DNA from: Bacteriovorax sp. Seq25_V
GTDB taxonomy: Bacteria > Bdellovibrionota > Bacteriovoracia > Bacteriovoracales > Bacteriovoracaceae
Assembly: GCF_000447795.1 (NCBI RefSeq)
Contig: NZ_AUNI01000020.1
Span: 310,001-374,000, forward strand
Direction of reading: 5' to 3'
DNA length: 64,000 bases
Shown here: in pieces, positions 8,443-61,931 of the stretch
Layout: every line of letters starts with the position of its first letter
Position numbering within the stretch: the first letter of the stretch is position 1
Translations under genes and position numbers: made by a program
The notes under the pieces: model-generated
The model's database searches: none
What the model was told of the DNA's origin: nothing
What the model saw: the letters and a program-made list of their open reading frames with translations, nothing else

Positions 8443-9285
8443 ATGAGAATTTTAACTATTGTCCTGTTACAGCTTTATTGTTTTGCTAATATATTGCCTA
8501 AGTCAAATATTCGAGCTCCAATCACTGAGTCCAAGTCACTTAACATGAGTGAGGAGCGTTTTCATTCTCTCATCGATAAAGTAATACTCTCTTATCAAGA
8601 CATTTTTAAGCTTTATGGTGCTAAGAATTTTAATGTATTTAGAGAATGGGAAAATTCTCAAGTAAATGCAGCTACGAGAAAGAAAAACGGAAACTTTGAG
8701 ATGATCGTTTATGGAGGTCTTGCTCGTTTTGAACCCTTGACTGATGATGGCTTTTTACTTGTTCTTTGTCACGAAGTTGGACACCTCATTGGAGGGGCAC
8801 CGACATACAAGCCTTTGAATGATGCAAGCTCAGAAGGGCAGGCAGATTATTTTTCAACTTCAAAATGTTTTAAAAAATTAATGAGCAACGAAAAAATTTC
8901 AATTAGCTCTAAAGATGATTATGATCCACTTGCTCTTTCTAAATGTGAAGAAAGTTATGATAAGAAAAGTCATGATTATAAAGTATGTCTTAGAGCGTCT
9001 AGAGCGATTGAATCTCTTTCTACAACAATTGCAAAATTGTCTGGATTAAAATCAGTCCCTCAGTTTGATACTCCTGACCCATATGTTAGACGTTTGATAC
9101 TATTTAATGGCTATCCGACAGAGCAGTGTCGAATAGACACAGCTTTTGCTGGATCTTTATGTCCAAAAGACTATTCAGACTTAAATGATATGGCCCTTTA
9201 TAATAAAGGGAATTGCTCTGTGCCCGGAGGGGATTTCTTAGGCCTAAGACCTCGCTGTTGGTATGTACCAAGGGAAGATAATTAA
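8443..9285 (+). CDS. Secreted zinc metalloprotease-like protein, unknown family
   Basis: 280 aa with a hydrophobic N-terminus (MRILTIVLLQLYCFA) that looks like a signal peptide. The motif HEVGHLIGG near residue 109 gives two zinc His ligands and the catalytic Glu. About 20 residues later SEGQADYF supplies a likely Glu third ligand, which is the M48/gluzincin pattern. Six or more Cys in the C-terminal half suggest periplasmic disulfides. The ribosome binding site (TAGGGG) directly abuts the ATG, so the start is not certain. It overlaps the next gene by one base, so they are co-translated. The substrate is unknown. Confidence 0.7.
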   Translation: MRILTIVLLQLYCFANILPKSNIRAPITESKSLNMSEERFHSLIDKVILSYQDIFKLYGAKNFNVFREWENSQVNAATRKKNGNFEMIVYGGLARFEPLTDDGFLLVLCHEVGHLIGGAPTYKPLNDASSEGQADYFSTSKCFKKLMSNEKISISSKDDYDPLALSKCEESYDKKSHDYKVCLRASRAIESLSTTIAKLSGLKSVPQFDTPDPYVRRLILFNGYPTEQCRIDTAFAGSLCPKDYSDLNDMALYNKGNCSVPGGDFLGLRPRCWYVPREDN

Positions 9286-9986
9286 TGATTTTAGAAAATA
9301 TAAAAGTTATTGCTTTCGATGCAGATGATACATTGTGGGTAAACGAGCCCTTCTTTAGAAGTGCGGAAGCTAAGTTTGAGCAAATTTTAGAAAAGTATCT
9401 GGGTCCAAGGGATGTGCAAAAAGCTTTATATGAAAATGAAGTGAAAAACCTTCATCTCTTTGGTTATGGCGCTAAAGGTTTTATGTTAGCAATGATCGAA
9501 ACAGCTCTTGAGCTGACAAAATATGAAATTGCTGGTGAAGATATTCAAAAGCTTATTAATATGGGCAAAGAAATTCTTTCTTATAAAATTGATCTCTATG
9601 ACCAAGTGCCAGAAACCTTAGACTATTTATCATCGAGGTTCAAAGTTATCTGTATCACTAAAGGTGACCTTCTTGATCAAGAGAGTAAAGTTGCTCGTAG
9701 TGGAATGGGTGACTTCTTTGATTCGATTCATGTTGTGAATGATAAGAAACCCGAAACATATTCAAAGATTATTGATAAACTCCAAGTAAAGCCTGAGGAA
9801 TTCATCATGATTGGAAATTCCTTGAAGTCAGATATTCTTCCCGTTGTCGAGATCGGGGGAAGAGCTATTTACATACCATGTGAGCAACCATGGGCCCATG
9901 AACTTGTTGCCGATGATCAAGTAGACAAGTCTACTTTTATTGAGCTCTCATCAATGAAAGAATTTCTTTCTAAAATTAAAGAGTAA
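9285..9986 (+). CDS. HAD-superfamily hydrolase
   Basis: 233 aa. All four HAD motifs are visible: motif I FDADDTLW near residue 14 (nucleophile and acid/base Asp), motif II CITKGD, a Lys in KKPETY, and motif IV MIGNSLKSDILP. The helical cap is inserted after motif I (C1 type), as in phosphoglycolate phosphatase and 5'-nucleotidase-like enzymes. It is cytoplasmic. Its start overlaps the upstream metalloprotease stop (TAATG). Phosphatase activity is likely; the substrate cannot be read from the sequence. Confidence 0.9.
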   Translation: MILENIKVIAFDADDTLWVNEPFFRSAEAKFEQILEKYLGPRDVQKALYENEVKNLHLFGYGAKGFMLAMIETALELTKYEIAGEDIQKLINMGKEILSYKIDLYDQVPETLDYLSSRFKVICITKGDLLDQESKVARSGMGDFFDSIHVVNDKKPETYSKIIDKLQVKPEEFIMIGNSLKSDILPVVEIGGRAIYIPCEQPWAHELVADDQVDKSTFIELSSMKEFLSKIKE

Positions 9987-10018
9987 GCTGTTGAATTAGT
10001 TCCTGACAGAGTTTTAGA

Positions 10019-10046
10019 TTGAAAATAATTGGGAATTAAGTATAAT
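10019..10046 (+). promoter_or_regulatory. Sigma-70 promoter of the bacterioferritin gene
   Basis: TTGAAA, 16 bp, TATAAT, placed 26 bp upstream of the bacterioferritin ATG. The -10 box is perfect and the -35 box matches five of six bases. No Fur box was recognised. Confidence 0.6.
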
Positions 10047-10072
10047 GTCTTTAAATAAAAAAAGGATAAATC

Positions 10073-10546
10073 ATGAAAGGTAATAAGACAATTATATCAA
10101 AGCTTAACCAGTTACTTACTCAAGAACTAACAGCTATGGATATTTACTTCCTTCATTCAAGAATCTACCAAGATTATGGTCTCACAAAATTATTTGAAAG
10201 AATTAATCATGAAATGACTGATGAGACAGGACACGCTTCTCTTTTAATGGAGAGGATTCTTTTTCTTGAAGGTATGCCTGAACTCGGAACGCGAGCTCCG
10301 TATACTTTAACAACTGATGTAAAAGAGATGATTCAAGTTGAACTCAATTACGAATATGAAAATAGTAAATTACTTAAAGAAGTTATTGCAACATGTGAAG
10401 CTGAAAAAGATTTTGGAACACGTGAAATTATTATGACTCTTTTAAAAGATACTGAAGAAGATCACATTAACTGGCTTGAAACTCAGTTAGGTCTTATTGA
10501 TAAGATTGGTATTGAGAGATACTTACAATCAGCTAGCCAACCATAG
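10073..10546 (+). CDS. bfr: Bacterioferritin, ferroxidase ligands kept, heme Met replaced
   Basis: 157 aa, the usual length for the 24-subunit iron-storage protein that oxidises Fe(II) and stores the mineral. Diiron ligands are present: E18, E51, H54, a Glu in the NYEYEN helix, and the late E and H in DTEEDHINWLE. The residue at position 52, normally the heme-coordinating Met between subunits, is Thr here (ETGH instead of EMKH), so the protein may be heme-free. It sits alone between a clear sigma-70 promoter and a terminator, with an AAGGA ribosome binding site. Confidence 0.92.
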   Translation: MKGNKTIISKLNQLLTQELTAMDIYFLHSRIYQDYGLTKLFERINHEMTDETGHASLLMERILFLEGMPELGTRAPYTLTTDVKEMIQVELNYEYENSKLLKEVIATCEAEKDFGTREIIMTLLKDTEEDHINWLETQLGLIDKIGIERYLQSASQP

Positions 10547-48048: not shown

Positions 48049-50706
48049 ATGATAAAAATAATAATTTCTCTATTAATTCTAAGCAATATCTTTGCTGCGT
48101 CAGATTTCCATTCTTGGGATAAGGACCTGGCCGATCTGAATTTGGACGTCAATCCAATCGAGCTTAGAAACAGAGCAGGGTGTGCAAAGGATTCAGAGTT
48201 TCCTACACAGTCAGTATTTTTATTAGTCGATAATACTACAATTGGAAAAGCCGCTTACCGTCTTGCTTCACTTACTCGTAAAGATCCAGAAGAGACAACA
48301 AAGCTTGCAATTAAAGCATACCGTAAAAAACTTATCACTTTAACAAATACTATATTTGAAAAGCTTTCTAATAGAGAGTTGCCACTTCTTCCAAACCTAA
48401 CGAGCTCGCTCCATGTACCAAGCCGTTATAAGCAAATTGTACAAGGTTGCTTCGAGCAGGAAGATTGTCCAGAGTTAAATGAATATCTCGAAAAGCTTTG
48501 GGCAAATAGCAAACTTAATGTTCCTGCAGTTAGAAAAATTGTTAATAATTATAAAACAGATAACTTTCATAGCGAAGAGAGCTATCACAAGCTTGATGAG
48601 GATACACGTTTAAGCTGTAACCTTCTAAAAAAATTCTCTCCAATTCAAGCTCATTTATTTGGAACTAAACCTGATCGTGAAGTACTTCAAAAAATTGCAT
48701 CTCGACTCGGTGATACTGCTAAGTACTTTGGTTCGTGTGATGATGAGAGTATCGAGAATCTTAAAGTCGCTGGTTATCAATTGGATATTAGACATCTTGA
48801 TGATTCTCAGTGGAATAAGATTGGTTTTGATTTTTGGAACAGTCTAAAAATCTATCTTTCTTGGGCCTTTAAAAGCACTACTGTCGTCGATTTTGATTAC
48901 GAACTAATAATTCAATCAACTCAAACTGAGGATTCAATTCTTCTAGTTTCTAATGGGTGTAAGAGTATTGAAGTACCAGAGTGTAGTAATGACTACCTAT
49001 CAAAGTCAGTCCTTGCTCAAATGGCGAAAGATGACTTCAAGAAAACAGCTCTTGAGTTGGATGTCTTAAGCCCTGTTGTTAGTGGTGCTCAGGATATCAT
49101 GCTCGAAAATCCATTTACAGCAGTTAATACTGATATTCTTGACCTTGCAACTCGTGAAGACGCAAATAAGTGGATTGAGTCTCTATTTAATAATTTTTCT
49201 GGTACGAAGGCATATATTAAGAATAAACTTACTGTCGCACTAAGCTTCTATACAATCTTAACGAAGAGATTAAGTGTTTCAAAACTTAGTAATGATTTAA
49301 ATCGTTATTACAGTGTTTCTAACTTTGATGATGATAAAATAAAAAATGATATCTACTATATGTGTAGTGAAGCAAAGTTTGTTTCGAGTGAAACATTTAG
49401 TTTTGTAAAAAAGAATATTACATTAATTAAAGATACAAACTTTATTGACTCAATGAAGCTATTTTTCAATGAGAATAGTCTTGAGGATATTGTCAATGAT
49501 TATGAAGCACTTCTTACAGATGTTAACGCATTTTGTGACTCCCTCGATGGAGAGCAGCTATTTGGGGGAGAGTTTGAAGTTGACCGTTCAGGGTTTAAGC
49601 AGTGGTACCTAGACAAGAACTATAAGGTAAAGAATCTAAAGTCTACGAGTGAAGAAAAATTAGCAGAGCTTAACTTAAAGCCATATATTAGTTATGGTGC
49701 TTCTGGTAAAGTGATCTGCCATTCCCCTAGCTCGTGTGTAAGAGAGTCAATCTCACATATCTTAGAAATAACTCGTGCAACATACTATGCTTCAACTTTT
49801 TGGAAATCAAAACATAAAGCAACAAGCTCTGATGTATTTAATCCTTATAGTGAAAGGGTTGCATGTAAGGTTTATGATCCGTGGTTTAAGACTCGTGCGA
49901 CAATAACTAACTTTACATCTGACATCTCTCAGGCAATTGTAAGTAGATTTACTCCAGGTGTACTATACTCTAAGTTTTCTTTACAACCAGGGCACGTTGA
50001 AAGCTTTAACTCTATGGTTAAAGACGGGAAAATCCTTTTCAATAAGAACTTTAAAAAAGAAAAAGTGATGATGGAGCTTGTTTCTGATTTTGGACCTTTA
50101 TTGGGTGTTCCTTGTGCAGTCTCAATTGCTGGAAAGTATTCTAATGGATACAATAACCTTTACCAGTTCAATGGGGTTTCAGTAGGGGCGTGTACTGCAA
50201 AAGACAGTTCTCAAATTATTGTAAATTCTGCATCTGATATTTCGACTCCTGATGGAGATGTGAAGTCGGGATGTTTTGCTTGTCGACTAAACTTCGAGTC
50301 AGTATCAAACACTTTGACTTATTTTAACTATGCAATTGGACCTGTTTACTACCTCGTTCGCTCTGTAGTAAGACTTGTAAAGGGATTAAGTGATCCTGAT
50401 AATATTGCAAGAGATTGGGAAATTGATCTAAATCATTTAAAAAATACTTATAGACGTTTTGGATATATTCCAAAATCTTGTGTAAAAAAACTTACAAAAG
50501 GTAAAGCCTGCCTTGGAAGTTCGAGAGAAGAGAAAGCCGTTTCAATCCTAAATTCTAAGTACAATGTAACAATCTTAGCTGAATCTAAGACTGTGTTTGG
50601 TAATTATAGATTTAAAATTAGAGAGTGTCATAAGCCAGTATCTGTAAACTTTAGAAATGAAGACTCTTTTGAAATTAAGTCTGATTGTAAGCTGGAAAAG
50701 AAATGA
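48049..50706 (+). CDS. Large exported protein of unknown family
   Basis: 885 aa with a signal peptide (MIKIIISLLILSNIFA). Largely helical with about 20 Cys spread along it and a weak hydrophobic segment near 785-805. No enzymatic motif was recognised. It is the longest protein of the cluster and could be its structural core. No Shine-Dalgarno sequence is visible at the ATG. Its stop overlaps the next start (ATGA), so the last two genes are coupled. Confidence 0.72.
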   Translation: MIKIIISLLILSNIFAASDFHSWDKDLADLNLDVNPIELRNRAGCAKDSEFPTQSVFLLVDNTTIGKAAYRLASLTRKDPEETTKLAIKAYRKKLITLTNTIFEKLSNRELPLLPNLTSSLHVPSRYKQIVQGCFEQEDCPELNEYLEKLWANSKLNVPAVRKIVNNYKTDNFHSEESYHKLDEDTRLSCNLLKKFSPIQAHLFGTKPDREVLQKIASRLGDTAKYFGSCDDESIENLKVAGYQLDIRHLDDSQWNKIGFDFWNSLKIYLSWAFKSTTVVDFDYELIIQSTQTEDSILLVSNGCKSIEVPECSNDYLSKSVLAQMAKDDFKKTALELDVLSPVVSGAQDIMLENPFTAVNTDILDLATREDANKWIESLFNNFSGTKAYIKNKLTVALSFYTILTKRLSVSKLSNDLNRYYSVSNFDDDKIKNDIYYMCSEAKFVSSETFSFVKKNITLIKDTNFIDSMKLFFNENSLEDIVNDYEALLTDVNAFCDSLDGEQLFGGEFEVDRSGFKQWYLDKNYKVKNLKSTSEEKLAELNLKPYISYGASGKVICHSPSSCVRESISHILEITRATYYASTFWKSKHKATSSDVFNPYSERVACKVYDPWFKTRATITNFTSDISQAIVSRFTPGVLYSKFSLQPGHVESFNSMVKDGKILFNKNFKKEKVMMELVSDFGPLLGVPCAVSIAGKYSNGYNNLYQFNGVSVGACTAKDSSQIIVNSASDISTPDGDVKSGCFACRLNFESVSNTLTYFNYAIGPVYYLVRSVVRLVKGLSDPDNIARDWEIDLNHLKNTYRRFGYIPKSCVKKLTKGKACLGSSREEKAVSILNSKYNVTILAESKTVFGNYRFKIRECHKPVSVNFRNEDSFEIKSDCKLEKK

Positions 50707-51233
50707 GATATATTTTATTAGTTTTAGTTTCATTAAGTGTTGAGGCCATGAGCGTTGAAGTTTCATGGAATGATAATTTTTCAAAATCTCTAACACTATA
50801 CTGTGAAGGTAATAATGAATGCCTAACATATTTTGATGAAGTAACGGTTATTGAGGAAGAGTTGTGTAATGATTGCTTTTCAACTGACATGACTTCATCA
50901 TTTATTTTTAATGGTATTGGTGAATCAATTACAACTGGAGAATTGGCAGTACCTCTCGATTTTTTTGATCTTTTAAAGTCTAATAACTTTGTTTCGATTG
51001 ACTATGATAGTCCTTATGATTTAGTCACAGGGCAAAGTCGCATTAAGAAGAAGTTGGCATACCGTAATCTTTGTGATGACTCTTCCGCTGATCCCGTTCT
51101 TTTTTTTGAAAAAGATGATTTTGGTAGAATCTCAAATCCAAGATTTATACTATGTGCCGACGGAGTTTATAATTTGGATCTTTTCTCTATTGATGTGAAC
51201 GATGACTTTTTTGGTATTCCTGAATTCTACTAA
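50703..51233 (+). CDS. Exported acidic protein, last gene of the cluster
   Basis: 176 aa with a signal-peptide-like start (MRYILLVLVSLSVEAMS). The mature part is very acidic and has six Cys (LYCEGNNECL, LCNDCF). No family was recognised. Overlaps the 885-aa gene by four bases. Its 3' end overlaps the convergent protease gene by 47 bp. Confidence 0.7.
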   Translation: MRYILLVLVSLSVEAMSVEVSWNDNFSKSLTLYCEGNNECLTYFDEVTVIEEELCNDCFSTDMTSSFIFNGIGESITTGELAVPLDFFDLLKSNNFVSIDYDSPYDLVTGQSRIKKKLAYRNLCDDSSADPVLFFEKDDFGRISNPRFILCADGVYNLDLFSIDVNDDFFGIPEFY

Positions 51234-51729
51234 TTCTCTGAATTACTTCATTAGTTTTATTTTCTCCATATAGGATTTCTAGAAGTTCATTTTCGAATCC
51301 GTACTTGCATGCAAATAAGTCCGCTTCAAATTGTTTATCAAGAACCGATAGCATTGATTGATTATGCCCAAAGTAGATGTGTCCTAGTTCATGAAACAAA
51401 ATGGCAAAAGCAATCGTGTTATCCACAGATCTCACCATACCGATAAACTCAGGATAAAGAATAATGAATTGTTTATTATTATGTGCAGCAAGGGTGGATG
51501 CATACTTTCCCGTAGAATAGAGAAAGCAAAGTTCTTTTTGCTTATTGAGTTTAGTGAAGTCTTCGGGGGTTAATAATTCCATGGATTCTTTGAAGAATCT
51601 ATAGAGTATTTTATCTTGACGTATCCACTCGTGTTCAGCTCTATTAAGAAGAAGTTCTTTGGTTGTCAGCTTAGTTATGTTTTTAGATTTCAACTTTACA
51701 AAGATCATGATTAAATATCGGATAATCAT
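51187..51729 (-). CDS. ImmA/IrrE-like zinc metallopeptidase
   Basis: About 180 aa from the ATG at 51729; an ATG seven codons later and a TTG upstream are also open. LFHELGHIYFGHN is the HExxH motif with an extra His, followed by QFEADLFACKYG, the E-x-x-A zinc/third-ligand element of the ImmA/IrrE family, which cleaves repressors in phages and stress systems. No signal peptide. No adjacent repressor gene is present, so the target is unknown. Confidence 0.75.
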   Translation of the reverse strand: MIIRYLIMIFVKLKSKNITKLTTKELLLNRAEHEWIRQDKILYRFFKESMELLTPEDFTKLNKQKELCFLYSTGKYASTLAAHNNKQFIILYPEFIGMVRSVDNTIAFAILFHELGHIYFGHNQSMLSVLDKQFEADLFACKYGFENELLEILYGENKTNEVIQRISRIQEYQKSHRSHQ

Positions 51730-51806
51730 CAGTTCAATCAACTATAATAATCACTTGATATTATTTGGGAAATACTTACCTAAGAGTCCTTTGAAGTCGA
51801 GATTTC

Positions 51807-52199
51807 TTGTATGATAGTTATATTGGAGTTTTTATTAGAGATTTAATCCTATTTATCTTATTGTTTTTGTCGGTTACAGCTTCTCACGCATACGAGAAGG
51901 CCGATGCTTTTATTGTTGAAGCACTCTCTGGATATTACAAGGTTCTTTCTCCTGTTACTATAAATAAGAAAATAAGTCTTATCGTGGTCAACAAGACGTT
52001 ACATAAGCTTAGAGGCAAATTACAAAGAAATGGACAAGAGGATTTGGCTTTTTTAACAACGGCTCCTGGTAAGTCGACATCGATTGAGTTTGAGTTCGAT
52101 AAATCGAAAAAATATCATTTCATTCCGCTCTCTCCTGCATTCCAAGAAGTAGAATTAAAAATAGGTGAAAAATCATATGAAGTTCCTGCGCAAAGATAA
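51807..52199 (+). CDS. Small exported protein upstream of a phosphoesterase
   Basis: 130 aa read from a TTG at 51807. GGAG lies about 8 bp before an in-frame ATT 9 codons later, so the exact start is doubtful. A hydrophobic signal segment (RDLILFILLFLSVTASHA) is followed by a small beta-rich domain of about 100 aa without Cys, resembling cupredoxin-like or immunoglobulin-like sandwiches. Overlaps the next gene by 23 bp. Function unknown. Confidence 0.55.
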   Translation: MYDSYIGVFIRDLILFILLFLSVTASHAYEKADAFIVEALSGYYKVLSPVTINKKISLIVVNKTLHKLRGKLQRNGQEDLAFLTTAPGKSTSIEFEFDKSKKYHFIPLSPAFQEVELKIGEKSYEVPAQR

Positions 52200-53313
52200 A
52201 ATTGAAAAAACGATTCTCGTAATTTCTGATATCCATCTTGGTGCTGGAGAATACGTTGATGGCCAAAAGAACTATCTCGAAGATTTTCATTCAGATGAAG
52301 AGCTCATTGATTTTTTAGAATATTTTTGTGAAGGAAAGTATGCTAGCCGCGAGATTGAGTTGATCATCAACGGTGACTTTTTTGATCTTCTGGCGGTTCC
52401 TTTTGTCGAATTCTATGATGATGAGTTCTGGTCAGAGAAGGCTTCTTTAAAGAAGTTAGAAATGATTTTAGAGGCCCATGAGGATGTCATGGAAGCACTT
52501 GCAAAGTTCATTGAAAAGAAGAATCGCAAAATTACGATGATTGTAGGAAATCATGATGCAGAGCTTGTTTTTGAGTCTCTTCAGAAAATGGTACTTTCTA
52601 AAATCCCAGATGATAGAGTTGAGAGATTCACCATTCTTTTAAATGAGCATATCGAATATCGTCCCCATGAAAAGGTCTGTGTTAAACACGGGCATGAGTA
52701 CGAGCTTGCACACCACTTCAATAGTGAGGACAATATAATTGAGGACAGTGACGGGGAGAAGTATTTTAATCCACCTTGGGGATCATATTACGTCACACGA
52801 GTCATCAATAAATTCAAAGAAGAGCGTTATCATGTTAATGCTGTGAGACCTATTAATAAATTTTTAATCAACGGCTTAATTTACGATACATTTTTTACTG
52901 CTCGCTTCATCCTCGCTAATATGTTCTACTTTGTGATGGTTCGAACGATCTTCTTATTCAAGTCGAGCAAAAATCTCACAGATCTCTTAAATCACTGTTT
53001 AAAAGAGCTTGAGCTCTTTAAGGATTATGAGTCCCTGACTTATGATTTTCTGAGTAAGAGTAACGATACGCAAGTTCTAATTGTTGGGCACACACACGAA
53101 CCTATTTGTCGTAACTATGCCAATGGTAAAACTTTTATCAATACCGGGACATGGACGCGAATGTATCACCTTGATTTCGGGAAAGATTCTTCAAGTGTTC
53201 AGCTTACTTTTGCAAAGATTGATGTTGTAAAGAATAAAGAGGGAAGTTATCTGAGATCGAATTTGAATTCATGGCAGGGAACTAGTAAGCTCCCATACCA
53301 TAACTTTAATTAG
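52177..53313 (+). CDS. Calcineurin-like metallophosphoesterase
   Basis: 378 aa from the ATG at 52177, chosen because ATAGGTGA lies upstream at good spacing. All motifs of the family are in order: VISDIHLGAG, INGDFFDLL, IVGNHDAEL, VKHGHEYE and IVGHTHEP. About 100 residues between motif 4 and 5 form a helical insert with hydrophobic segments (TARFILANMFYFVMVRT), so it may sit on the membrane, as in UDP-diacylglucosamine pyrophosphatase (LpxH) relatives. The substrate is unknown. Confidence 0.85.
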   Translation: MKFLRKDKIEKTILVISDIHLGAGEYVDGQKNYLEDFHSDEELIDFLEYFCEGKYASREIELIINGDFFDLLAVPFVEFYDDEFWSEKASLKKLEMILEAHEDVMEALAKFIEKKNRKITMIVGNHDAELVFESLQKMVLSKIPDDRVERFTILLNEHIEYRPHEKVCVKHGHEYELAHHFNSEDNIIEDSDGEKYFNPPWGSYYVTRVINKFKEERYHVNAVRPINKFLINGLIYDTFFTARFILANMFYFVMVRTIFLFKSSKNLTDLLNHCLKELELFKDYESLTYDFLSKSNDTQVLIVGHTHEPICRNYANGKTFINTGTWTRMYHLDFGKDSSSVQLTFAKIDVVKNKEGSYLRSNLNSWQGTSKLPYHNFN

Positions 53314-53314
53314 T

Positions 53315-53821
53315 TTATTCTGTTTCAGCGTAGCAGAGCTCAAGATACATTGGCCCATGCGCAGAAGTTAGAGGAATCAGTATAACAGTAGTTCCCTCTG
53401 GGTATTTGATTGTGTGGTTACTACCTTCAATGATCGAAGGGATTGCCATATTTGAGGTATATCCCATTCCTGCAAGATCACGTTTTGCATTCCCCATAAT
53501 CATATTACAGATTTCACCTCCAACATCTCTGATATCTTCGTTAAATTCTGTATATTCTTCCATTAACATTGCTCCAGCTACTTTCAAGTATGTGGCATAT
53601 GGAAATGAGATAACAAGCATAGCACGATAGTCACGCTCTACACCATCTTTACTTAAAGTCCCTGATAGACCAAGTACGGCGGATACATCACCTTGTGATA
53701 GGTTACCTTTCTTTACTTGTGGTTTTCCTGGTTCTAGTTTGGTAAATACCATTGTTTCAAAAACATTTTTTGCAGCATCAATAAATGGTTTTGAAAACTC
53801 TAAAAAATTTGCATTCGACAT
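53315..53821 (-). CDS. cheX: CheX-family CheY phosphatase
   Basis: 168 aa. The CheC/CheX/FliY fold, with the single catalytic motif E-x-x-N in GGEICNMIMGNAK near residue 102; this is the CheX pattern that removes phosphate from CheY. The GNAKRDLAGMGY segment is typical. Last gene of the leftward sigma-28 operon, 18 bp after the degenerate HPt gene and next to CheY, its natural partner. Confidence 0.88.
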   Translation of the reverse strand: MSNANFLEFSKPFIDAAKNVFETMVFTKLEPGKPQVKKGNLSQGDVSAVLGLSGTLSKDGVERDYRAMLVISFPYATYLKVAGAMLMEEYTEFNEDIRDVGGEICNMIMGNAKRDLAGMGYTSNMAIPSIIEGSNHTIKYPEGTTVILIPLTSAHGPMYLELCYAETE

Positions 53822-53839
53822 TACTTCTCCATTTGTCTC

Positions 53840-54343
53840 TTATAAACCTAAACTAGACATTAGATCATCAATTGAACTTTGATCAAGTACGCTATCATCT
53901 TTGTATGCTACAGAAGACCTTTCGATATTCTTAAATTTATCTTGTAGCCATTTAAGTCTCGTCACAAAAGCTTGTGTATTCATAGACTTTAGACCATTAT
54001 CATTTCCAGTTTTTAGCTGATCTACCATTCGTCCCAGAAGGTCATGAGCGTCGAAAAGAATTGCTACAACGACTTCAAGTAGGGCATGATCTCTAATCTG
54101 GCTTGACTTATAACCAATGGCCTTTCCAAGATCGCAGAAAGTTGCGATTTCATCAGCTCCAATTGATTTAGCCGCACCCATGATACGATCGATCACTTGT
54201 CCAAACTGTTCGAGTTTTGCTGTTTTCGTTGGATCTTCTTCGAGTTCTTCAAGACAGGCTTCAAGCTCATCAAGAAGTTCTAATGATTCATCACAAAACT
54301 CAATAATAATTTCCTTCATTGAAGGATCGTCTATAAGGCCCAT
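53840..54343 (-). CDS. Degenerate HPt-domain protein
   Basis: 167 aa. Helical. The N-terminal ~105 residues match a CheA/HPt four-helix bundle (FCDESLELLDELEACLEELE, then QVIDRIMGAAKSIGADEIATFC). In HPt domains the second helix has H-x-x-K-G with the phospho-accepting His; here the aligned residues are D and M, so it cannot accept phosphate in the usual way. It may act as a docking or sequestering partner of CheY. Sits between cheX and cheY, 8 bp from the latter. Confidence 0.75.
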   Translation of the reverse strand: MGLIDDPSMKEIIIEFCDESLELLDELEACLEELEEDPTKTAKLEQFGQVIDRIMGAAKSIGADEIATFCDLGKAIGYKSSQIRDHALLEVVVAILFDAHDLLGRMVDQLKTGNDNGLKSMNTQAFVTRLKWLQDKFKNIERSSVAYKDDSVLDQSSIDDLMSSLGL

Positions 54344-54351
54344 AGTTATCC

Positions 54352-54750
54352 TTACTTATTAAAAATTTTATCAATCTTTTCTTTAAGTACTTGCGCCGAG
54401 AAAGGCTTTACAATGAAGTTACTTACTCCGGCCTTTACTGCGATAACAACGTTACCTTGTTCAGCTTCTGCCGTAATCATAAGAAATGGTAGTTTCTTAT
54501 ACTCTTCAGATGCTCTTAATTTCTTTAGTAAATCAAGACCTGTTAACTGTGGCATGTTCCAGTCTGAAACGATAAACTCATACGGTTCACCAACTTCAGT
54601 TGCTTTTTCGATCATTGGTAGGGCCGTTGCACCATCGTCGGCTTCAGTGATATTCGTAAAACCAATTTGACCAAGCATGTTCTTGATAATTTTTCTCATC
54701 GTTGCCATATCATCAATAACTAAAATTTTCATGTTCGCTTTTAGCGCCAT
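54352..54750 (-). CDS. cheY: CheY-type response regulator
   Basis: 132 aa stand-alone receiver. All active-site residues are present: the acidic pair in LVIDDMATMR, the phosphorylation Asp in VSDWNMPQLTGLDLL, the Thr in MITAEAEQG, and the Lys in IVKPFSA. Length and the 'SDWNMP' form match flagellar-motor CheY. Expected to be dephosphorylated by the neighbouring CheX. It is the only member of the operon with a complete receiver. Confidence 0.93.
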   Translation of the reverse strand: MALKANMKILVIDDMATMRKIIKNMLGQIGFTNITEADDGATALPMIEKATEVGEPYEFIVSDWNMPQLTGLDLLKKLRASEEYKKLPFLMITAEAEQGNVVIAVKAGVSNFIVKPFSAQVLKEKIDKIFNK

Positions 54751-54761
54751 TTCTCTTCTCC

Positions 54762-55811
54762 TTAAGCAGCTTCACTTATATTTTCAGTACTTATTAAGTT
54801 TATTAGGTTTTCATATATTTTATCGCCAAACTCGAATTCAAGTCCAGCGCTAAAGGTTTTATTTTTCATTCTTTGAATAACTGAGCGAATTGGTAGCTTA
54901 GAACCTGTGATTTCACCTTCTGAATATTCTAAAATATGAGATACTGCACCTAAAATGAGTGCCATTGTATCGATAAATTCACTATGTTTTTGTCTGGGAT
55001 ACCCAGAACCATCATAGCGCTCATGATGTTGAAAGATAATATTCTTGCACCTTTCACTGATTTCAATCCCACTTTTTAGTAGGAGATGGTGAGAATAGCC
55101 AGGATGTTTTTTAATCTTATCCTTTTCTTTATCAGAAAGCTCGTTAGTTGGTCTGTGTGATAGTGAGTGATCAAGTTGCGTATATCCGAGATGAGCAAAA
55201 AATGCAGCACATACGATATCTGCCAACGTTTCTTGGTCATTCATATTCATATTTTTCGCCAAATAATAAGATATAGCCACAATTCGGTTGGTTCTATTGT
55301 CTTCCGTCAACAATTCTTCTGCCAAGTATCCGGCCAGAGAAACAGTGTGTGAGATATTTAGCTGAAATATTTCTATTTCTTTTTTGGCACTTAAAATCAT
55401 TGGTAAAAATGAATCCGCATCAATACAATTATTCATTCCTGATTTTAGGTCATACTTTGGAATTTCACCACTTTCTGATTCATATTCTTCTAGTGCTAAT
55501 GCCTTGAGTTTCTCATTTCTCTTAATTTCTATTTCTGATAGCTCTCTAGCCTGAAGGGAGGGAACTTCACTTTCATCAATCTCTACAGAATGAAGAAAAG
55601 TTCTTTTCTGTTTTTTATCGACAGCAAGGGAGCCACCTTTTTCAGTGATAAATGAAATAAACTCTCTATGATCATCTGTTAATGGGCTATTTGCATATAA
55701 GAATACATTGTATAATTTTGATTGTGGATTATAGACATAGAGGTGAAAAGGGAAGAGCTGTCCTTCTCTAAGCATGTCGACTGTGATATTAAAATACTCT
55801 TGTGTCTTCAT
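54762..55811 (-). CDS. Degenerate HD-GYP domain protein
   Basis: 349 aa. The N-terminal ~130 residues have a PilZ-like or DUF3391-like alpha/beta pattern. From about 145 an HD-GYP core follows. Its HHERYDGSGYP motif is intact and the central KKHPGYSHHLL is present. The HD pair is lost: the expected L-H-D-I-G-K reads F-A-H-L-G-Y, and the later Asp of V-A-D reads V-S-H. Loss of metal ligands argues against c-di-GMP hydrolysis and for a binding role. Its first base is also the last base of the scaffold gene's stop codon. Confidence 0.82.
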   Translation of the reverse strand: MKTQEYFNITVDMLREGQLFPFHLYVYNPQSKLYNVFLYANSPLTDDHREFISFITEKGGSLAVDKKQKRTFLHSVEIDESEVPSLQARELSEIEIKRNEKLKALALEEYESESGEIPKYDLKSGMNNCIDADSFLPMILSAKKEIEIFQLNISHTVSLAGYLAEELLTEDNRTNRIVAISYYLAKNMNMNDQETLADIVCAAFFAHLGYTQLDHSLSHRPTNELSDKEKDKIKKHPGYSHHLLLKSGIEISERCKNIIFQHHERYDGSGYPRQKHSEFIDTMALILGAVSHILEYSEGEITGSKLPIRSVIQRMKNKTFSAGLEFEFGDKIYENLINLISTENISEAA

Positions 55812-58585
55812 TAACTTGCCTTTTTAAAGAATTTACCAAATATTGATTTGATGATTCCTTCTTCCTCATTATTATTTTGTGAACTTATTGCTTTTGGTTT
55901 ATTGTATTCCCCAGTGAGTCCAGCCTTGTGAGATTCCTCGAGGAAAATACCACGTGTAGTTTCAAAAATTACTTCGATTGATTTAGAGATATCTTCTTTA
56001 GGAGAGTTCTCAAAATAGCAAGTAATATAACCAAGTTTGTTAGCACCTTCATAAATAGGGAAGAAAAACAAATTCTCCTCAGTGTTAAATTTCTCATTTT
56101 CCCACTTTGGTAGATTCATCAAATCCCATTCATCTTTATGTGTTTCTTCTTTATCGGTAATTTTCTCTAGTACATTTTCTTTAGATTGGTAAATTTTTTC
56201 AAATTTTCCATTAGCTTTATTTAAAGAGTAGAAAGTCGAATACCCTTGATACTTATTTTTGATTGAGTCAGTAATAAACTTAAAAAGATCCTCTTTGTTT
56301 AAGTTCTTGTCGCTATAGAGGTTTAGTACTTTAATCGCAATTTCAATTCCATTAGACTTTGGAGTGTAAATGGTCTCCTCTTCTTTATCCACCTTGTTCT
56401 TTAAAGCAACAATCTCAGCTTCTGAAAGAGAGTCGAGATAATCATCTTCATAAATACCTCTCAGAAACTCTTTGTCTGCGTTCTCACTATAGTATTTAGG
56501 CCCTTCTGATTTTTTACCACTGGAGGATCTATTAATAGTAATTGCTTCAAATTCTGAATGTAGCTTTCTATAATCAATTGTTTGTTCACCAAGATCAACT
56601 TTTTCTTTGAAAGTGATATCTAGCTGAGATTTATTCTTCTTTTCTTGACCATAATTTTCAGTTCCATCTTTTTTCTTATTAATGTCCCAGTCGTATTCTT
56701 GATGCTTGATCCCTTTTCTTGAATCAAGATTTGTTTCTATTCTTTCTGTGTGCGCGGAATACTTTTTTGCATCTTGTTCATGCTCGAGATCAAGATCCAT
56801 GCTTGAGTTTCTGCGACCAAAATCTTTTTCGGTAGAACTTTTCTTATTGGCCTCTTTTTCACTCTCTTCACTGTCAAAGGCCAGGTCGAGATCTTTTTCT
56901 TTCTTTACGCTAGAAAAGTCATCCTCATCCTCTGATATGCTTTTATCATCTCTTGTGCTACTGTCATTTTCTAGCTTGAGGTTAATTCCTGCTCGAGAGT
57001 TTTCTTGATCGTCTTTATCTTCTTCAAGATCAAGGCCTTCTTCTCGTTCTTTATCTGTTTGAAGTTTTAATTTCGTGCCATAGAGGTCACTCTCATCTTC
57101 ATCATCATTTTCAAGATCAAGACCCTTCTCAAGATCGAGGTGAGTGTGATCAGATTCCTCATCTTCATCTGCTGATATATCATTGCTGTTTCGAGCGTCA
57201 ATTTCCTCTTCTTCGATTACAGTAACAGTTTTTGAGACATTTCCGCGTATATAGTTATCAATCTCATTATCATTTTTCTTTTGGTCTTCTTCGTCTTCTT
57301 CAAAGCCTAAGTCGATATCATTCTTGCCTTCATGTTCAGCACGACGTTTTTCGTTTGTATGTTCAGAATCTTCACTTTCACTTTCTCTTTCTCTATCAAG
57401 CTTCAACTCTGCTTGTGTTTTGATGCTTTTCTCTTCTTCATCGTCAAGATCTAGCATCGTTTCTGATGATTTGTTCCTTTTTCCGTAAAGGTCGTCATCA
57501 TCTGTGTGCTGCGATGATTCTTCTAATTCAGAATCATTTTCAGCTGATAAATCGAGTCCAAACTCTAATTCAGTTTTGTTCTTTCTGCGTTCCTCGAGTT
57601 CTTCTTCCTCTTTTGATAAGTCTTTATCATCTTCATCAAAATTCATATCAAGCATGCTACTGTTGAGTTTTCCCTTGTAGTACTTATCATCAGCCTTTGC
57701 TTTATCCTTATCTTCTTTTTCTCTTCCTGTTTTATCTTCTCCGGTCTCTAGTGTTAGAGAGCTTTTCTTTGATGGATTTCCATACTCATCATATTCCATC
57801 TCGTTAGATCGACGTTCCTTTGTTGGTTCTTCAAAGTCTAGTGTCACTTCATTTTTATCTTTCTTTTTACTTCTTAGGTATGAGTCGAGATAACTACCTT
57901 CACTCATTTCTTTATCTTTTTCTTTGTCTTCGTCAAAAGCTAAGTCTGTATTGTGAACTTTTCCTTCCCATTCTGTTTCAATCTTTCCTTCTTTATAACC
58001 AGGCCTATTTTCTTCGCTCTCATCAGCATCAATTTCTAGTTCTGTGCCAAGTTTTCCTCGAAGGTTGTAATCAATATGATTATCACTTTCAGAAATAATT
58101 CCTTTTTCTACACGTTGTTTTTGTTTTGTATCAGTACCTTCATCTTCACTATGAGCAAATTTAACTTCCTCATTTTGTTCTTCGTCTTCTTCACCTGCTA
58201 CAACAATAGAGCGTAGTAGAAGTTTAACTTTATAAAGAAGAGTCTTTGGTGGTACAGGTTCTACTACACATTCAGTAAGGCCAATCTTAGAAAACTTATC
58301 AAGTGTCTTTCTAGGAATTGATTTTGCTGATAGAAGAATTACTTTTGAATTTAATTTATGTATAGCTCTTCTGTTTGGTTGAAGAACTGAAGCACATTTT
58401 TTTGGATTAGAAAATATTGTTAGAGACTGTCCAATTGTCGGAAGTAATTGGGATACTTCCATTACATCGTCTACTTCATAAATTTCAACTCCATCCTCAT
58501 CGGCTGTTTCCGCAATGACTTCTTTCAGCTTCTTCAAAGAATCTGATAAGGGATGGACGAATATTAATGGTTTTGTGCCGCTCAT
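55811..58585 (-). CDS. Large acidic repeat protein with pseudo-receiver and C-terminal domain
   Basis: 924 aa. Residues 1-128 look like a receiver fold (KPLIFVHPL start, EPVPPKTLLYKVKLLLRSI end), but the Asp cluster is missing and the conserved Lys of 'KP' is Glu, so it is a pseudo-receiver. Residues about 170-665 are highly charged and built of about 16 degenerate units of 25-35 aa with a core close to Y-x-x-G-K-x-x-x-x-L-D-L-E-x-D-E. Residues about 745-900 form a globular alpha/beta domain that could be GAF-like. The transcript is almost leaderless from a perfect sigma-28 promoter. No homologue was recognised; a scaffold role is inferred. Confidence 0.8.
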   Translation of the reverse strand: MSGTKPLIFVHPLSDSLKKLKEVIAETADEDGVEIYEVDDVMEVSQLLPTIGQSLTIFSNPKKCASVLQPNRRAIHKLNSKVILLSAKSIPRKTLDKFSKIGLTECVVEPVPPKTLLYKVKLLLRSIVVAGEEDEEQNEEVKFAHSEDEGTDTKQKQRVEKGIISESDNHIDYNLRGKLGTELEIDADESEENRPGYKEGKIETEWEGKVHNTDLAFDEDKEKDKEMSEGSYLDSYLRSKKKDKNEVTLDFEEPTKERRSNEMEYDEYGNPSKKSSLTLETGEDKTGREKEDKDKAKADDKYYKGKLNSSMLDMNFDEDDKDLSKEEEELEERRKNKTELEFGLDLSAENDSELEESSQHTDDDDLYGKRNKSSETMLDLDDEEEKSIKTQAELKLDRERESESEDSEHTNEKRRAEHEGKNDIDLGFEEDEEDQKKNDNEIDNYIRGNVSKTVTVIEEEEIDARNSNDISADEDEESDHTHLDLEKGLDLENDDEDESDLYGTKLKLQTDKEREEGLDLEEDKDDQENSRAGINLKLENDSSTRDDKSISEDEDDFSSVKKEKDLDLAFDSEESEKEANKKSSTEKDFGRRNSSMDLDLEHEQDAKKYSAHTERIETNLDSRKGIKHQEYDWDINKKKDGTENYGQEKKNKSQLDITFKEKVDLGEQTIDYRKLHSEFEAITINRSSSGKKSEGPKYYSENADKEFLRGIYEDDYLDSLSEAEIVALKNKVDKEEETIYTPKSNGIEIAIKVLNLYSDKNLNKEDLFKFITDSIKNKYQGYSTFYSLNKANGKFEKIYQSKENVLEKITDKEETHKDEWDLMNLPKWENEKFNTEENLFFFPIYEGANKLGYITCYFENSPKEDISKSIEVIFETTRGIFLEESHKAGLTGEYNKPKAISSQNNNEEEGIIKSIFGKFFKKAS

Positions 58586-58596
58586 AGTGCTTTTTT

Positions 58597-58623
58597 TATC
58601 GGCACAAAAGCTTGTTTTTTTAA
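58597..58623 (-). promoter_or_regulatory. Perfect sigma-28 promoter of the signalling operon
   Basis: On the minus strand TAAA, 15 bp, GCCGATAA, the exact FliA consensus. The predicted transcription start (about 58590) is only about 5 bp from the ATG at 58585, and no Shine-Dalgarno sequence is present. Confidence 0.8.
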
Positions 58624-58683
58624 GTTTTTTAATAGCAGATAAATATTGTCCAACATTATTTTTAAAATTTTTTAACTTTGTGC

Positions 58684-58710
58684 TAAAGCTTATAAAAGTA
58701 CTGCCGAAAA
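58684..58710 (+). promoter_or_regulatory. Sigma-28 promoter of flagellin
   Basis: TAAA, 15 bp, GCCGAAAA; one mismatch in the -10 box. About 125 bp of leader follow before the flagellin ATG. Confidence 0.8.
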
Positions 58711-58721
58711 ATATTCATGAA

Positions 58722-58803
58722 TGGTCGGCATGACCAGTAACTTTTAACTAACAAAAAAGGTTATTAAGAGCAGTAAGCTCATTGGACATACAAGGTTGTA
58801 TGT
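58722..58803 (+). promoter_or_regulatory. Structured flagellin 5' leader
   Basis: Three small hairpins: TGGTC/GACCA (58722-58736), GAGC/GCTC (58768-58780) and the perfect ACATACAA/TTGTATGT (58786-58803). They could stabilise the mRNA or mediate regulation. Confidence 0.5.
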
Positions 58804-58842
58804 ACTAACTCCAGCACGGGGAAAGTGATCAAGGAGGCATCA

Positions 58843-59676
58843 ATGGGTTTACGTATCAACACGAATGTTACATCTCTAGCAGCACAAAGAACACTTGGAA
58901 ACAACAGCGCTGATCAAGCACAAACACTAGGTAAGTTATCTTCTGGTACAAGAATTGTACGTTCAGCAGATGACGCAGCAGGTTTAGCGATTTCTGAGAA
59001 GTTAAAGGCGCAAGTTAGATCAACAAATCAAGCAGAAAGAAACGCGAATGACGGTATTTCAATGATTCAAACTGCAGAAGGTGGTTTAAATGAAATTTCG
59101 AACATTCTTATTAGACTAAGAGAACTTTCAGTTCAGTCAGCTTCGGATACTGTAGGAGATACAGAGAGAAAGTTTACTGATCTTGAGTATCAAAACCTTA
59201 AGCAAGAAGTAGAGCGTATTTCGCAAGTTACTGAATTTAACGGTAAGAAACTTCTAAATGGAGAAGGTGATACTTATGATTTCCAAATTGGTATCAATAA
59301 CGACGCTTTCCAAGATAGAATTTCTTTTGATACACAACTTCTAAACTCATCAATTGGAAGTCTTGGTGTTGATGGTCTTGCGGTTTCAACAAAGGAAGAC
59401 GCACAAAATGGTCTTGCAGCAATTGACAATGCAATTCAACAAGTATCAGGACAAAGAGCGGAGCTAGGAGCGAAGCAGAACAGATTAACTTCAACTGTTC
59501 AAAATTTACAGATTAGTTCTGAAAACTTATCTGCAGCTAACTCTCGTATCAGAGATACTGATTATGCTTCAGAAACAGCTAAGAAGACTAAGCTTGATAT
59601 TCTTACAAATGCTGGTACTTCGGTTCTTGCTCAATCAAATGCACAAGGACAACAAGCACTAAAACTTATTGGTTAA
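58843..59676 (+). CDS. fliC: Flagellin
   Basis: 277 aa from the ATG at 58843, chosen because AAGGAGG lies 5 bp upstream; a longer frame is discarded. Short flagellin with the conserved D0/D1 N-terminus (MGLRINTNVTSLAAQRTL, then RIVRSADDAAGLAISEKLKAQ) and C-terminus (SRIRDTDYASETAKKTK...NAQGQQALKLIG), and almost no variable D2/D3 centre. Likely one of several flagellins forming the filament, secreted by the flagellar export apparatus. Expressed from the sigma-28 promoter at 58684-58710; strong terminator after it. Back to back with the signalling operon. Confidence 0.96.
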   Translation: MGLRINTNVTSLAAQRTLGNNSADQAQTLGKLSSGTRIVRSADDAAGLAISEKLKAQVRSTNQAERNANDGISMIQTAEGGLNEISNILIRLRELSVQSASDTVGDTERKFTDLEYQNLKQEVERISQVTEFNGKKLLNGEGDTYDFQIGINNDAFQDRISFDTQLLNSSIGSLGVDGLAVSTKEDAQNGLAAIDNAIQQVSGQRAELGAKQNRLTSTVQNLQISSENLSAANSRIRDTDYASETAKKTKLDILTNAGTSVLAQSNAQGQQALKLIG

Positions 59677-59709
59677 TTAAATCAATACTTAAACTTTTTA
59701 AAAGGTATC

Positions 59710-59736
59710 GGCCCCGAGAATTCGGGGCCTTTTTTT
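59710..59736 (+). terminator. Terminator of flagellin
   Basis: Perfect 8-bp stem GGCCCCGA / TCGGGGCC, loop GAAT, seven T. Confidence 0.95.
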
Positions 59737-59945
59737 ATGTGTGCAACTAAAAATTCTCAATTTTAAATTCTGTTTAGAACTGTAAGTTTCTTTTAACACT
59801 TCGATTCAATCATTTGTCTAGCTTAAGCCTTTGTATTCATAGAACTAGTTCAGTTAAATAGTAAATTTTATATTTTTTAAGTTTGTTAACCTATGGGTTG
59901 ATTCGATAATGTTGATATAAATCAGGAAATTGTCGGAGTAACATC

Positions 59946-61520
59946 ATGCTTAAGAAAAGAAAGCTTAGCTTAAATGCAAAAATTTTGAATATGGCCTTGA
60001 TTCCTTTTATCTTGTTTCTTCTCGCTTTTATGTATTATGGATATAACTCAACTAGAAAGGCACTGATTCTCGAGAAGAAAAATACTATTCATGACGTTAC
60101 AACGACAGTGATCGCGCAATTTAAATCACTTGAAGAAAAAGTTTTAAGTGGGGAGATTTCTGAGGCGCAGGCTAAGGTTATTGCTAAGCACTTTGTTAAA
60201 ACCATTCGCTATGGGCGTGATGGAGATGACTATTTATGGATTAATGATTTAACACCATTTATGGTGGCCCACCCTTCGAAAGCTTTAGAAGGGACGGATG
60301 TTACAAAATTTGTAGATAAAAAAGGAAAACCATTATTTCTTGATATTGTTAAACTCGTTAAAGAGCAAAACAATGGTTATATTTATTATTCTTGGATTTC
60401 TAAATCAGATAAGAATAAATTTGTTGATAAGCTCTCATATGTCGAACTATATAAGCCATGGGGATGGGTTGTTGGTACAGGTATTTATCTTGAAGATGTT
60501 GAAGCATATATTTTAAAAACATTCTTGCAACAAATTATTTTTGGAGTTATTGGAATTACTCTTATGGGAATATTCTTTTTCATCATCTTGAAAAAAGGAG
60601 TTTCAAATCCACTTCTTCAAATGGCACAACGACTTAGAGAATCGTCAAAGAATGTAACGAAAGGCTCAGAAGATACTTTTGAAACATCAGATATTCTTTC
60701 AAAAGCGACTACTGAGCAGGCCGCGAGCTTACAAGAAACAGTTGCCTCTGTTGATGAGATATCTTCTATGATTGGCAGAAATAGTGATTTTGCTGAGCAA
60801 TCGAAAATGACAAGTGATGCTTCTCAACAACATGCTATTCAGGGTAAACAAACTGTCGACCAAATGGTTCAAACAATAGAGATGATTGGTAAGCATAATA
60901 ACGAGGCCATGGAGCAGATGGAATCGAGTAATCAAAAAATTGCAGGCATTTTAAGTATTATCAAAAATATCGAAGACAAGACTAAGGTTATTAACGATAT
61001 TGTTTTCCAGACAAAACTTCTATCATTTAACGCTTCTGTCGAAGCAGCTCGTGCTGGTGAAAGTGGAAAAGGTTTTGCTGTTGTTGCTGAAGAAGTCGGA
61101 AATCTGGCCAATATGTCAGGTAAGGCGAGTGATGAGATTAAGCAACTTTTAGATGAATCAATCAAAAGTGTAGAGTTGATTGTTAGTGATACTTCTTCAA
61201 TGGTTAAGAATGTTATTGACCAAGGTAAGAGTACTGTCGAAGCTGGGAAGGCCAAGGCCGTGCAATGTAAGGAAGTTCTAGATGAGATCGTTAAAAATGT
61301 AGATGAAGTAAATATCAAGATTTCAGAAATTGCGAGTGCTTGTCGTGAACAGTCTCAGGGTGTTAACGAAATCACTAATGCGATGAGATTACTTGATGAT
61401 GTTACGAGTCAAAATAATAATGCTGCAAGTATTGCGGCTAGAAATGCTCAAGAATTAAAAGCTGAGGCAAATAATTTAGATCAGGTCGTTGATCAAGTAC
61501 TAACACTAGTTGAGGGGTAG
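59946..61520 (+). CDS. Methyl-accepting chemotaxis protein with a Cache sensor
   Basis: 524 aa. Helix at about 12-32, periplasmic single Cache domain 35-185 (RYGRDGDDYLWINDLTPFMVAHP and WGWVVGTGIYLEDVE are typical), second helix 190-215, then a cytoplasmic signalling domain with the hairpin tip IVFQTKLLSFNASVEAARAGE and GFAVVAEEVGNLA. The tip reads K-L-L-S instead of the common N-L-L-A. No C-terminal tether pentapeptide. GGAG ribosome binding site. The ligand is unknown. Adjacent flagellin and CheY/CheX genes put it in a motility neighbourhood. Confidence 0.93.
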   Translation: MLKKRKLSLNAKILNMALIPFILFLLAFMYYGYNSTRKALILEKKNTIHDVTTTVIAQFKSLEEKVLSGEISEAQAKVIAKHFVKTIRYGRDGDDYLWINDLTPFMVAHPSKALEGTDVTKFVDKKGKPLFLDIVKLVKEQNNGYIYYSWISKSDKNKFVDKLSYVELYKPWGWVVGTGIYLEDVEAYILKTFLQQIIFGVIGITLMGIFFFIILKKGVSNPLLQMAQRLRESSKNVTKGSEDTFETSDILSKATTEQAASLQETVASVDEISSMIGRNSDFAEQSKMTSDASQQHAIQGKQTVDQMVQTIEMIGKHNNEAMEQMESSNQKIAGILSIIKNIEDKTKVINDIVFQTKLLSFNASVEAARAGESGKGFAVVAEEVGNLANMSGKASDEIKQLLDESIKSVELIVSDTSSMVKNVIDQGKSTVEAGKAKAVQCKEVLDEIVKNVDEVNIKISEIASACREQSQGVNEITNAMRLLDDVTSQNNNAASIAARNAQELKAEANNLDQVVDQVLTLVEG

Positions 61521-61523
61521 TTC

Positions 61524-61931
61524 TTAATCGATGGACTTAACAATGACTCCATTCTCTTTCAAGAGTTTGGTAAAAACACCATCTCCTTCGATTAAGTTTC
61601 CAGTGAAGGTTCCATCATAGATTTTCCCACAACCACACATTGGGGACTTACTTTTTAGTAAGGCCTCCGTGGCATTAGAAAGCTTTGCTATTTTAAGGGC
61701 CTGCTCAGCTCCTAAGTTATATTTATTTGTTACATCTTTCCCGTCACGTGTAATTATTTTTTTTTCGATGAGTTCTGCAGGTGTTCTTGGAGTAGGTAAA
61801 CCTCCGAGCTGTTCCGGACAGACTGGAATGGCCTCACCTCTTTCAACAATTTCAATGATTTCTGCCCTTTCTTGAGATTTGCAATCGTATCGACACTCAA
61901 CTCCAGCAAGGCAGGCGCTTACTATTTTCAT
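61524..61931 (-). CDS. DUF523 (TudS-like) protein
   Basis: 135 aa, the family's length. SACLAGVECRYDCKS, PVCPEQLGGLPTPRTPAE and SPMCGCGKIYDG hold the conserved Cys that bind a [4Fe-4S] cluster in TudS, a desulfidase acting on thiouracil. TudS function is known for one branch; whether this one shares it is inferred. Cytoplasmic. Convergent with the chemoreceptor gene (3 bp between stops). Confidence 0.88.
   Translation of the reverse strand: MKIVSACLAGVECRYDCKSQERAEIIEIVERGEAIPVCPEQLGGLPTPRTPAELIEKKIITRDGKDVTNKYNLGAEQALKIAKLSNATEALLKSKSPMCGCGKIYDGTFTGNLIEGDGVFTKLLKENGVIVKSID

Follow-up and report, generated by a model that had tools for sequence, protein, structure and literature searches.

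What is the function of an operon in which an intact CheY and an intact CheX are encoded together with three proteins that have lost the catalytic residues of their families? This question is raised by five leftward genes of Bacteriovorax sp. Seq25_V (GCF_000447795.1), here termed A to E, which lie at 53315–58623 of a window of 64,000 nucleotides (positions 310,001–374,000 of NZ_AUNI01000020.1; coordinates are those of the window). A sequence-only reading had placed the genes there and had described A as a pseudo-receiver, B as an HD-GYP protein without its HD pair and D as an HPt protein without its His. We found the genes where they had been placed, as five minus-strand open reading frames (ORFs) with purifying selection and conserved synteny, and the catalytic losses hold on alignments of relatives. 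The same reading took the set for a non-enzymatic scaffold. We here come to a different view of D, which is probably a protein derived from the P1 (HPt) domain of CheA that binds phosphorylated CheY (CheY-P) and does a CheZ-like job beside CheX, being expressed together with flagellin.

The fold of D is that of CheA P1. The Pfam Hpt match of D is below threshold, and a profile comparison with CheA P1 results in an E-value of 8.4e-7. The AlphaFold model (predicted local distance difference test score, pLDDT, of 84) matches the P1 domain of CheA3 (3kyj) with a Z-score of 14.5 over 129 residues at 2.6 Å, which makes it a four-helix HPt fold; a disordered linker (residues 142–153) and a helix near the C-terminus (residues 156–164) follow. 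The matches listed in the fold search include CheA P1 and other HPt chains and do not include CheZ, which by itself does not exclude a likeness to CheZ.

We compared 55 D proteins; 54 D loci were detected in the species genomes of GTDB r220 by a pattern-based scan with the D alignment. The phospho-His is replaced by Asp52 in all 55 proteins, so that no phospho-accepting His is left, and the Glu that follows 22 residues later is just as invariably replaced by Lys74. With Asp/Lys instead of His/Glu, this pair resembles a compensated salt bridge. Altogether, 11 positions are invariant (G48, Q49, I51, D52, R53, M55, G56, K74, Y78, K79 and Q82). Relative to the CheA P1 domains of its lineage, D has changed from Arg to Gln49, from His to Asp52, from Thr to Arg53 and, at the Lys of the HxxKG motif, to Met55, and it has Gly48-Gln49 where these P1 domains have Phe-Arg. 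The resulting helix, GQxIDRxMG, is common to nearly all D proteins. Unlike the P1 and HPt domains that it resembles in fold and profile, D stands alone and has an added CheZ-like tail. A tail-less D-like paralogue with the motif GNAIDRIYG is found on another contig of the same genome (L047:7564-8007), beside genes unrelated to chemotaxis.

CheZ is made up of a bundle of helices, a linker and, at the C-terminus, a helix that binds CheY, and its active motif is DXXXQ (PMC7750401). The face of CheY to which CheZ attaches is also used by FliM, and the two bind it in a comparable way (PMC3774744). D is similar to CheZ (PF04344; Proteobacteria, Campylobacterota) in having a helical bundle, a flexible linker and a gene beside cheY. 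Furthermore, both have a helix xQxx[VI]DDL[LM]xSLG[FL] at the very C-terminus, and they resemble each other in a helix [DE]xxGQ[VI]IxRxM. The tail of D, DQSSIDDLMSSLGL, resembles the C-terminal end of Escherichia coli CheZ (SQDQVDDLLDSLGF) and the start of the FliM of this genome (LSQDEVDALLNAV; the protein begins MAQVLSQDEVDALLNAV). This FliM sequence is kept in other relatives. Most D proteins end in a linker and a helix QxxIDDLMxSLGL. A CheZ-tail profile built from seven CheZ proteins gives 41 of the 55 D tails a higher score than any of the 782 other C-termini encoded in these loci, which marks the tail, by its sequence, as a putative CheY-binding helix. The only C-termini other than those of D that score well with this profile are the DEFDDLGF ends of a PilZ-like-looking protein encoded beside D in two marine relatives (L084:7616-8443 and L102:492-1391).

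A comparison of D to E. coli CheZ by BLASTP results in two matches only, which are the C-terminal helix and GQVIKRMM, the segment that holds the catalytic Gln147. The same two sites are detected when the D and CheZ families are aligned by hhalign (tail p 0.0011, active site p 0.043, reversed CheZ 0.21). Related sequences count as a single profile in these p values, which are only indicative. The DxxxQ-like site, found by both methods and weak in a profile scan, reads ExxGQ in 51 of the 55 D proteins and has the Gln in all of them. When 45 D proteins were scanned with Pfam, CheZ was the second commonest weak match after Hpt (11/45, best 0.0011). A search of the PDB with the D tail alone gave nothing relevant, where 15-residue CheZ peptides fall under the minimum length of the library. 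A search of 35 relatives detected no true CheZ, and the E. coli control was positive.

D also occurs within chemotaxis operons. In two other genomes (loci L098 and L100), D starts where cheA ends and is the last gene of an operon with the order MCP-cheB-x-cheY-cheR-receiver-cheA-D. This order is homologous to the che cluster of the genome studied here, which has no D at that place. Thus, there is a link between D and chemotaxis that does not depend on the five-gene set. A 392-aa protein with repeated ELSPAALESLRELQG-like motifs is encoded between cheB and cheY of the che cluster (L048:4709-5887), and similar proteins are found at this position in L098 and L100. The invariant residues of D, its tail and its position after cheA suggest that D is a part of the chemotaxis machinery with a role like that of CheZ. 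These features do not support the earlier description of D as merely a degenerate HPt within a non-enzymatic scaffold.

All 54 D loci belong to Bdellovibrionota, nearly all of them to Bacteriovoracia. Conserved five-gene synteny, by which the sequence-only reading had proposed to be judged, does exist: the complete order A-B-C-D-E is present in 22 of the 54 loci. C is directly upstream of D in 40/52 loci and E directly downstream in 33/52, and E is found anywhere in the locus in 42. The CheY-D-CheX core spreads wider than the five-gene set, and C-D-E is also found without A and B; in some Halobacteriovoraceae, A and B lie on the opposite strand beside C-D. Within the family, D occurs together with CheX (25 genomes with both, 0 with D only, 3 with CheX only and 8 with neither; Fisher p 5e-6). 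FliM is nearly universal in the family while D is not, and we thus conclude that D is dispensable for having a flagellum. For instance, the near-complete genome G003 from the same genus has neither D nor a close CheX. In a more distant Bdellovibrionota genome (L143:5562-6098 and 8736-10111), a D-like protein with the motif AQRIDRIMG is located about 2.6 kb from an adjacent pair of cheY and a receiver-CheX fusion, an arrangement that hints at an older association of CheY, CheX and D.

The neighbours of D on either side keep all key residues, as the sequence-only reading had claimed. In an alignment with E. coli CheY, C has the full residue set (Asp13/14, Asp63, Thr93 and Lys115). No other receiver of the genome is as similar to E. 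coli CheY as C, which has 142.5 bits to the E. coli CheY model, a score under the cutoff of 189. A second motor-type CheY (C15:282095, 108 bits) has a neighbourhood that is neither chemotaxis nor flagellar. E matches Pfam CheX with 77.5 bits (cutoff 27) and has the ExxN signature at Glu103/Asn106, which identifies it as a CheX. The residues that CheZ and CheX bring into the active site of a receiver are an acidic one and a Gln or Asn (PMC3035606). The statement that the operon has no cheA, cheW, cheR or cheB also holds, with none of these genes within 50703–61931. The che cluster of this genome sits on another contig, and CheA genes are found on contigs C9 and C11.

We propose that the operon encodes an output module that belongs to flagellar class III and is centred on CheY, with the following contacts and direction of effect. 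C would be a motor-type CheY that receives its phosphoryl group from a CheA with a gene outside the operon and that switches the motor. D would have descended from the P1 domain of CheA by losing its phosphotransfer chemistry and gaining a C-terminal helix like those with which CheZ and FliM hold CheY-P. With its tail bound to CheY-P, D would have its P1-like helix placed near the CheY active site. It would compete with FliM for CheY-P and help to end the signal alongside the intact phosphatase E, either by hydrolysing CheY-P via Gln49 (compare Gln147 of CheZ) or by only holding it or presenting it to CheX. A, with its pseudo-receiver, acidic tether and C-terminal domain, would form a non-catalytic pair with B, and this pair would probably position or tune the module.

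How far the likeness to CheZ extends has to be weighed. Phosphatase chemistry at Gln49 is plausible from the sequence comparisons. D might even be an independently evolved CheY-P phosphatase, made of a P1 domain with Asp/Lys instead of His/Glu, a catalytic Gln at a distance of one turn and a CheZ/FliM-type tail, that replaces CheZ in Bacteriovoracia and works beside CheX; we consider this a tentative idea and rather doubtful. In addition to the limits of the hhalign values, several findings speak against a CheZ-like D. About 10 divergent D proteins are without a good tail, and these include both proteins located after cheA, in L098 and L100, where the tail is degenerate. Unlike CheZ, D is a protein of 167 aa with a CheA-P1/HPt fold and with Asp/Lys at the old His/Glu sites, and its Pfam CheZ match is below the cutoff (12.6 bits compared to 30.7) and aligns at the tail only. 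CheZ is a dimer of two-hairpin chains, whereas the AlphaFold monomer of D is a single-chain CheA-P1 bundle. The active-site likeness spans eight residues, and in the profile scan its rank varies from 3rd to some hundreds of 813 ORFs; since the scan fails to separate D from other ORFs, we retain phosphatase activity as a possibility only. Furthermore, the Gln is not always kept in distant D-like proteins with IDR, being Asn in the L047 paralogue and Ile in L144. Lastly, the P1 domain of CheA3 alone has no phosphatase activity (PMC3591291), and thus a P1 fold per se does not predict such activity.

It is quite possible that the tail of D binds CheY-P without any catalysis. D would then serve to buffer CheY-P, to compete with FliM or, as a tether, to pass CheY-P on to E. 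The tail similarity is strong and the active-site similarity weak, Gln49 is not kept in the most distant relatives, and CheX, a real phosphatase, is encoded next door in most loci. However, a mere tether would need no invariant helix at the old phospho-His site, and the Gly48-Gln49 pair of that helix is invariant in all 55 D proteins, in contrast to Phe-Arg in CheA P1 of the lineage. The P1 fold and the site directly after cheA in L098 and L100 would also suit a decoy substrate, a mimic of P1 that blocks the CheA kinase domain and so lowers CheY phosphorylation. We find this improbable, as a decoy leaves the CheZ/FliM-like tail and the fixed pairing with cheY unexplained, and as Lys51-type and other residues with which P1 contacts P4 are replaced in D (Met55).

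Two further explanations concern the whole set. The scaffold proposed by the sequence-only reading, which would include D and control CheY or the motor without enzymatic activity, accounts for the ancestral catalytic residues gone from A, B and D, and for the long, length-conserved disordered region and conserved terminal segment of A. Yet E is an intact CheX, the conserved features of D indicate a specific CheY-P-binding role, and C-D-E occurs without A and B; thus, a scaffold is not the core of the system. We therefore regard it as unlikely for the set, and keep it as a reasonable interpretation for A and B but not for D. A non-flagellar output such as pole marking, gliding or prey contact, with CheY as a general receiver, could be suspected because FliM-bearing relatives such as G003 are without D and a close CheX, and because the pseudo-receiver and disordered region of A are reminiscent of FrzS-like polar proteins (PMC1974792). 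There is little to be said for its probability, given that the operon is divergent from a flagellin gene and has a sigma-28-type promoter, that C is the most E. coli-CheY-like receiver and that the tail of D fits the FliM motif.

Our preferred reading, in which D is a CheY-P-binding protein expressed with flagellin, includes a flagellar promoter. The consensus of the sigma-28 -35 element is TAAAGTTT; the operon has TAAAAAAA, which agrees at TAAA only. Thus, the earlier claim of a perfect sigma-28 promoter is correct for the -10 element, GCCGATAA, but not for the -35 element, and the predicted promoter has the form TAAA...-N11-GCCGATAA with a perfect and position-conserved -10. TAAA-N15-GCCGATAA has its sole match in the window here, compared to a mean of 0.03 in shuffled sequences. 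A box CGA[TA][AT]A is present at the same distance before the ATG of A in 13 of 19 loci, in comparison to 1.0% before other (AT-rich) ATGs. The divergent flagellin gene fliC likewise has a sigma-28-type promoter, and FliA is encoded in the genome (278.8 bits). The flagellar co-expression that had been proposed is thus supported and may be expected. As the -10 box ends about 10 bases before the ATG of A, the first message of the operon is probably leaderless or nearly so, which appears to be conserved across relatives.

The genes are closely packed: A and B overlap by one base, followed by spacings of 11 nt (B-C), 8 nt (C-D) and 18 nt (D-E), and Shine-Dalgarno-like GGAG or AAGGA is found upstream of C, D and E. 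In a comparison of the window with L056, the proportion of non-synonymous differences (pN) ranges from 0.07 to 0.36 across the five genes and that of synonymous differences (pS) is near saturation. All five are thus under purifying selection and are not decaying copies; a decaying operon is ruled out by dN/dS far below 1 in each gene. After cheX, most five-gene loci have a convergent metallophosphatase-like gene (52165–53313 in the window), for which a functional link is not evident.

A begins with a receiver fold (pLDDT about 90; structural matches to REC domains with Z-scores of up to 14.4). This fold is devoid of the acidic pair, the phospho-Asp and the Lys, and KP is replaced by the invariant Glu109, so that it is not a signalling-competent receiver. 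The disordered region that follows is poorly conserved in sequence and keeps its length (449–538 aa between fixed ends). The C-terminal domain is GAF-like in its order of helices and strands; Pfam gives no support for this identity in 17 orthologues, and the matches listed in a fold search with the whole of A are to the receiver domain. The terminal segment may possibly be a membrane or partner anchor, and its hydrophobic moment is within the range of random 20-mers, such that a membrane-binding amphipathic helix can at most be suggested. A resembles the FrzS-type proteins of Myxococcus in being a long protein with an N-terminal receiver fold without phosphorylation site, and differs by its acidic disordered region and C-terminal alpha/beta domain, a likeness by description only (PMC1974792).

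B retains the domain of HD-GYP phosphodiesterases and its HH...GYP half (HHERYDGSGYP). Unlike these enzymes, it has Ala206-His207 in place of the HD metal pair, where the other five-gene orthologues have CH, SH, HH or HN. Also lost are the C-terminal metal Asp and, in most orthologues, the first metal His. A and B look like a non-catalytic pair of partners. The B orthologues of the five-gene operon (54762–54770 in the window) end in -Ala-Ala, which resembles a degradation tag of the ClpXP type. Such ends are also found on the CheA of the che cluster (L048:8012-10573) and on a nearby intact HD-GYP protein (L048:10629-11375).

Table: Features of the five-gene operon and its flagellin neighbour (window coordinates)
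Feature	Position	Strand	Description
fliC promoter, sigma-28-type (predicted)	58684..58710	+	TAAAGCTT-N11-GCCGAAAA
fliC	58825..59676	+	flagellin gene, divergent from A
Operon promoter, sigma-28-type (predicted)	58596..58622	-	-10 GCCGATAA 10 bases upstream of the ATG of A
Gene A, 924 aa	55811..58585	-	pseudo-receiver, long acidic disordered region, C-terminal alpha/beta (GAF-like) domain
A residues 1-126	58208..58585	-	receiver fold without phosphorylation residues (AlphaFold, Foldseek, residue check)
A residues 131-667	56585..58195	-	acidic, mostly disordered (AlphaFold, orthologue alignment)
A residues 747-887	55925..56347	-	alpha/beta domain, GAF-like by helix/strand order of the AlphaFold model only
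A C-terminal segment	55814..55855	-	IIKSIFGKFFKKAS, Phe/Leu/Lys-rich, conserved among five-gene orthologues
Gene B, 349 aa	54762..55811	-	pseudo-HD-GYP (Pfam HD_5 3.8e-18, alignment)
Gene C, 132 aa	54352..54750	-	CheY, all signalling residues kept (Pfam response regulator)
Gene D, 167 aa	53840..54343	-	CheA-P1-like helical bundle without His, disordered linker, CheZ/FliM-like C-terminal helix
D residues 45-56	54176..54211	-	ExxGQxIDRIMG, invariant helix at the old phospho-His position; resembles the CheZ active-site helix DLTGQVIKRMM
D residues 154-167	53843..53884	-	DQSSIDDLMSSLGL, CheZ/FliM-like putative CheY-binding helix (sequence comparison)
Gene E, 168 aa	53315..53821	-	CheX with ExxN active site (Glu103, Asn106)

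CheX pairs with CheY in spirochetes, as E does here. E is a CheX with ExxN like those of Borrelia, Thermotoga and Proteobacteria (3iic, 3h2d, 6vpw); unlike these, it is accompanied by D, B and A instead of CheA/CheW. Chemosensory systems have generally been described with either CheZ or CheC/CheX phosphatases (PMC10782961). Here, the protein beside CheX has the fold of the domain from which CheY receives its phosphoryl group, and on this fold it copies the CheY-binding tail of CheZ and, perhaps, the catalytic helix of CheZ as well. In the open-access literature searched we found no description of D or the five-gene module, which is no proof of absence. On balance, we favour the interpretation that D is a lineage-specific CheZ-like protein built on the CheA-P1 fold and that the module is a variant on the theme of CheY-P output and termination. 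If this is true, the phosphodonor domain of CheA would have been recycled into a signal terminator or a trap for CheY-P, and these predatory bacteria would thereby be supplied with their missing CheZ function.

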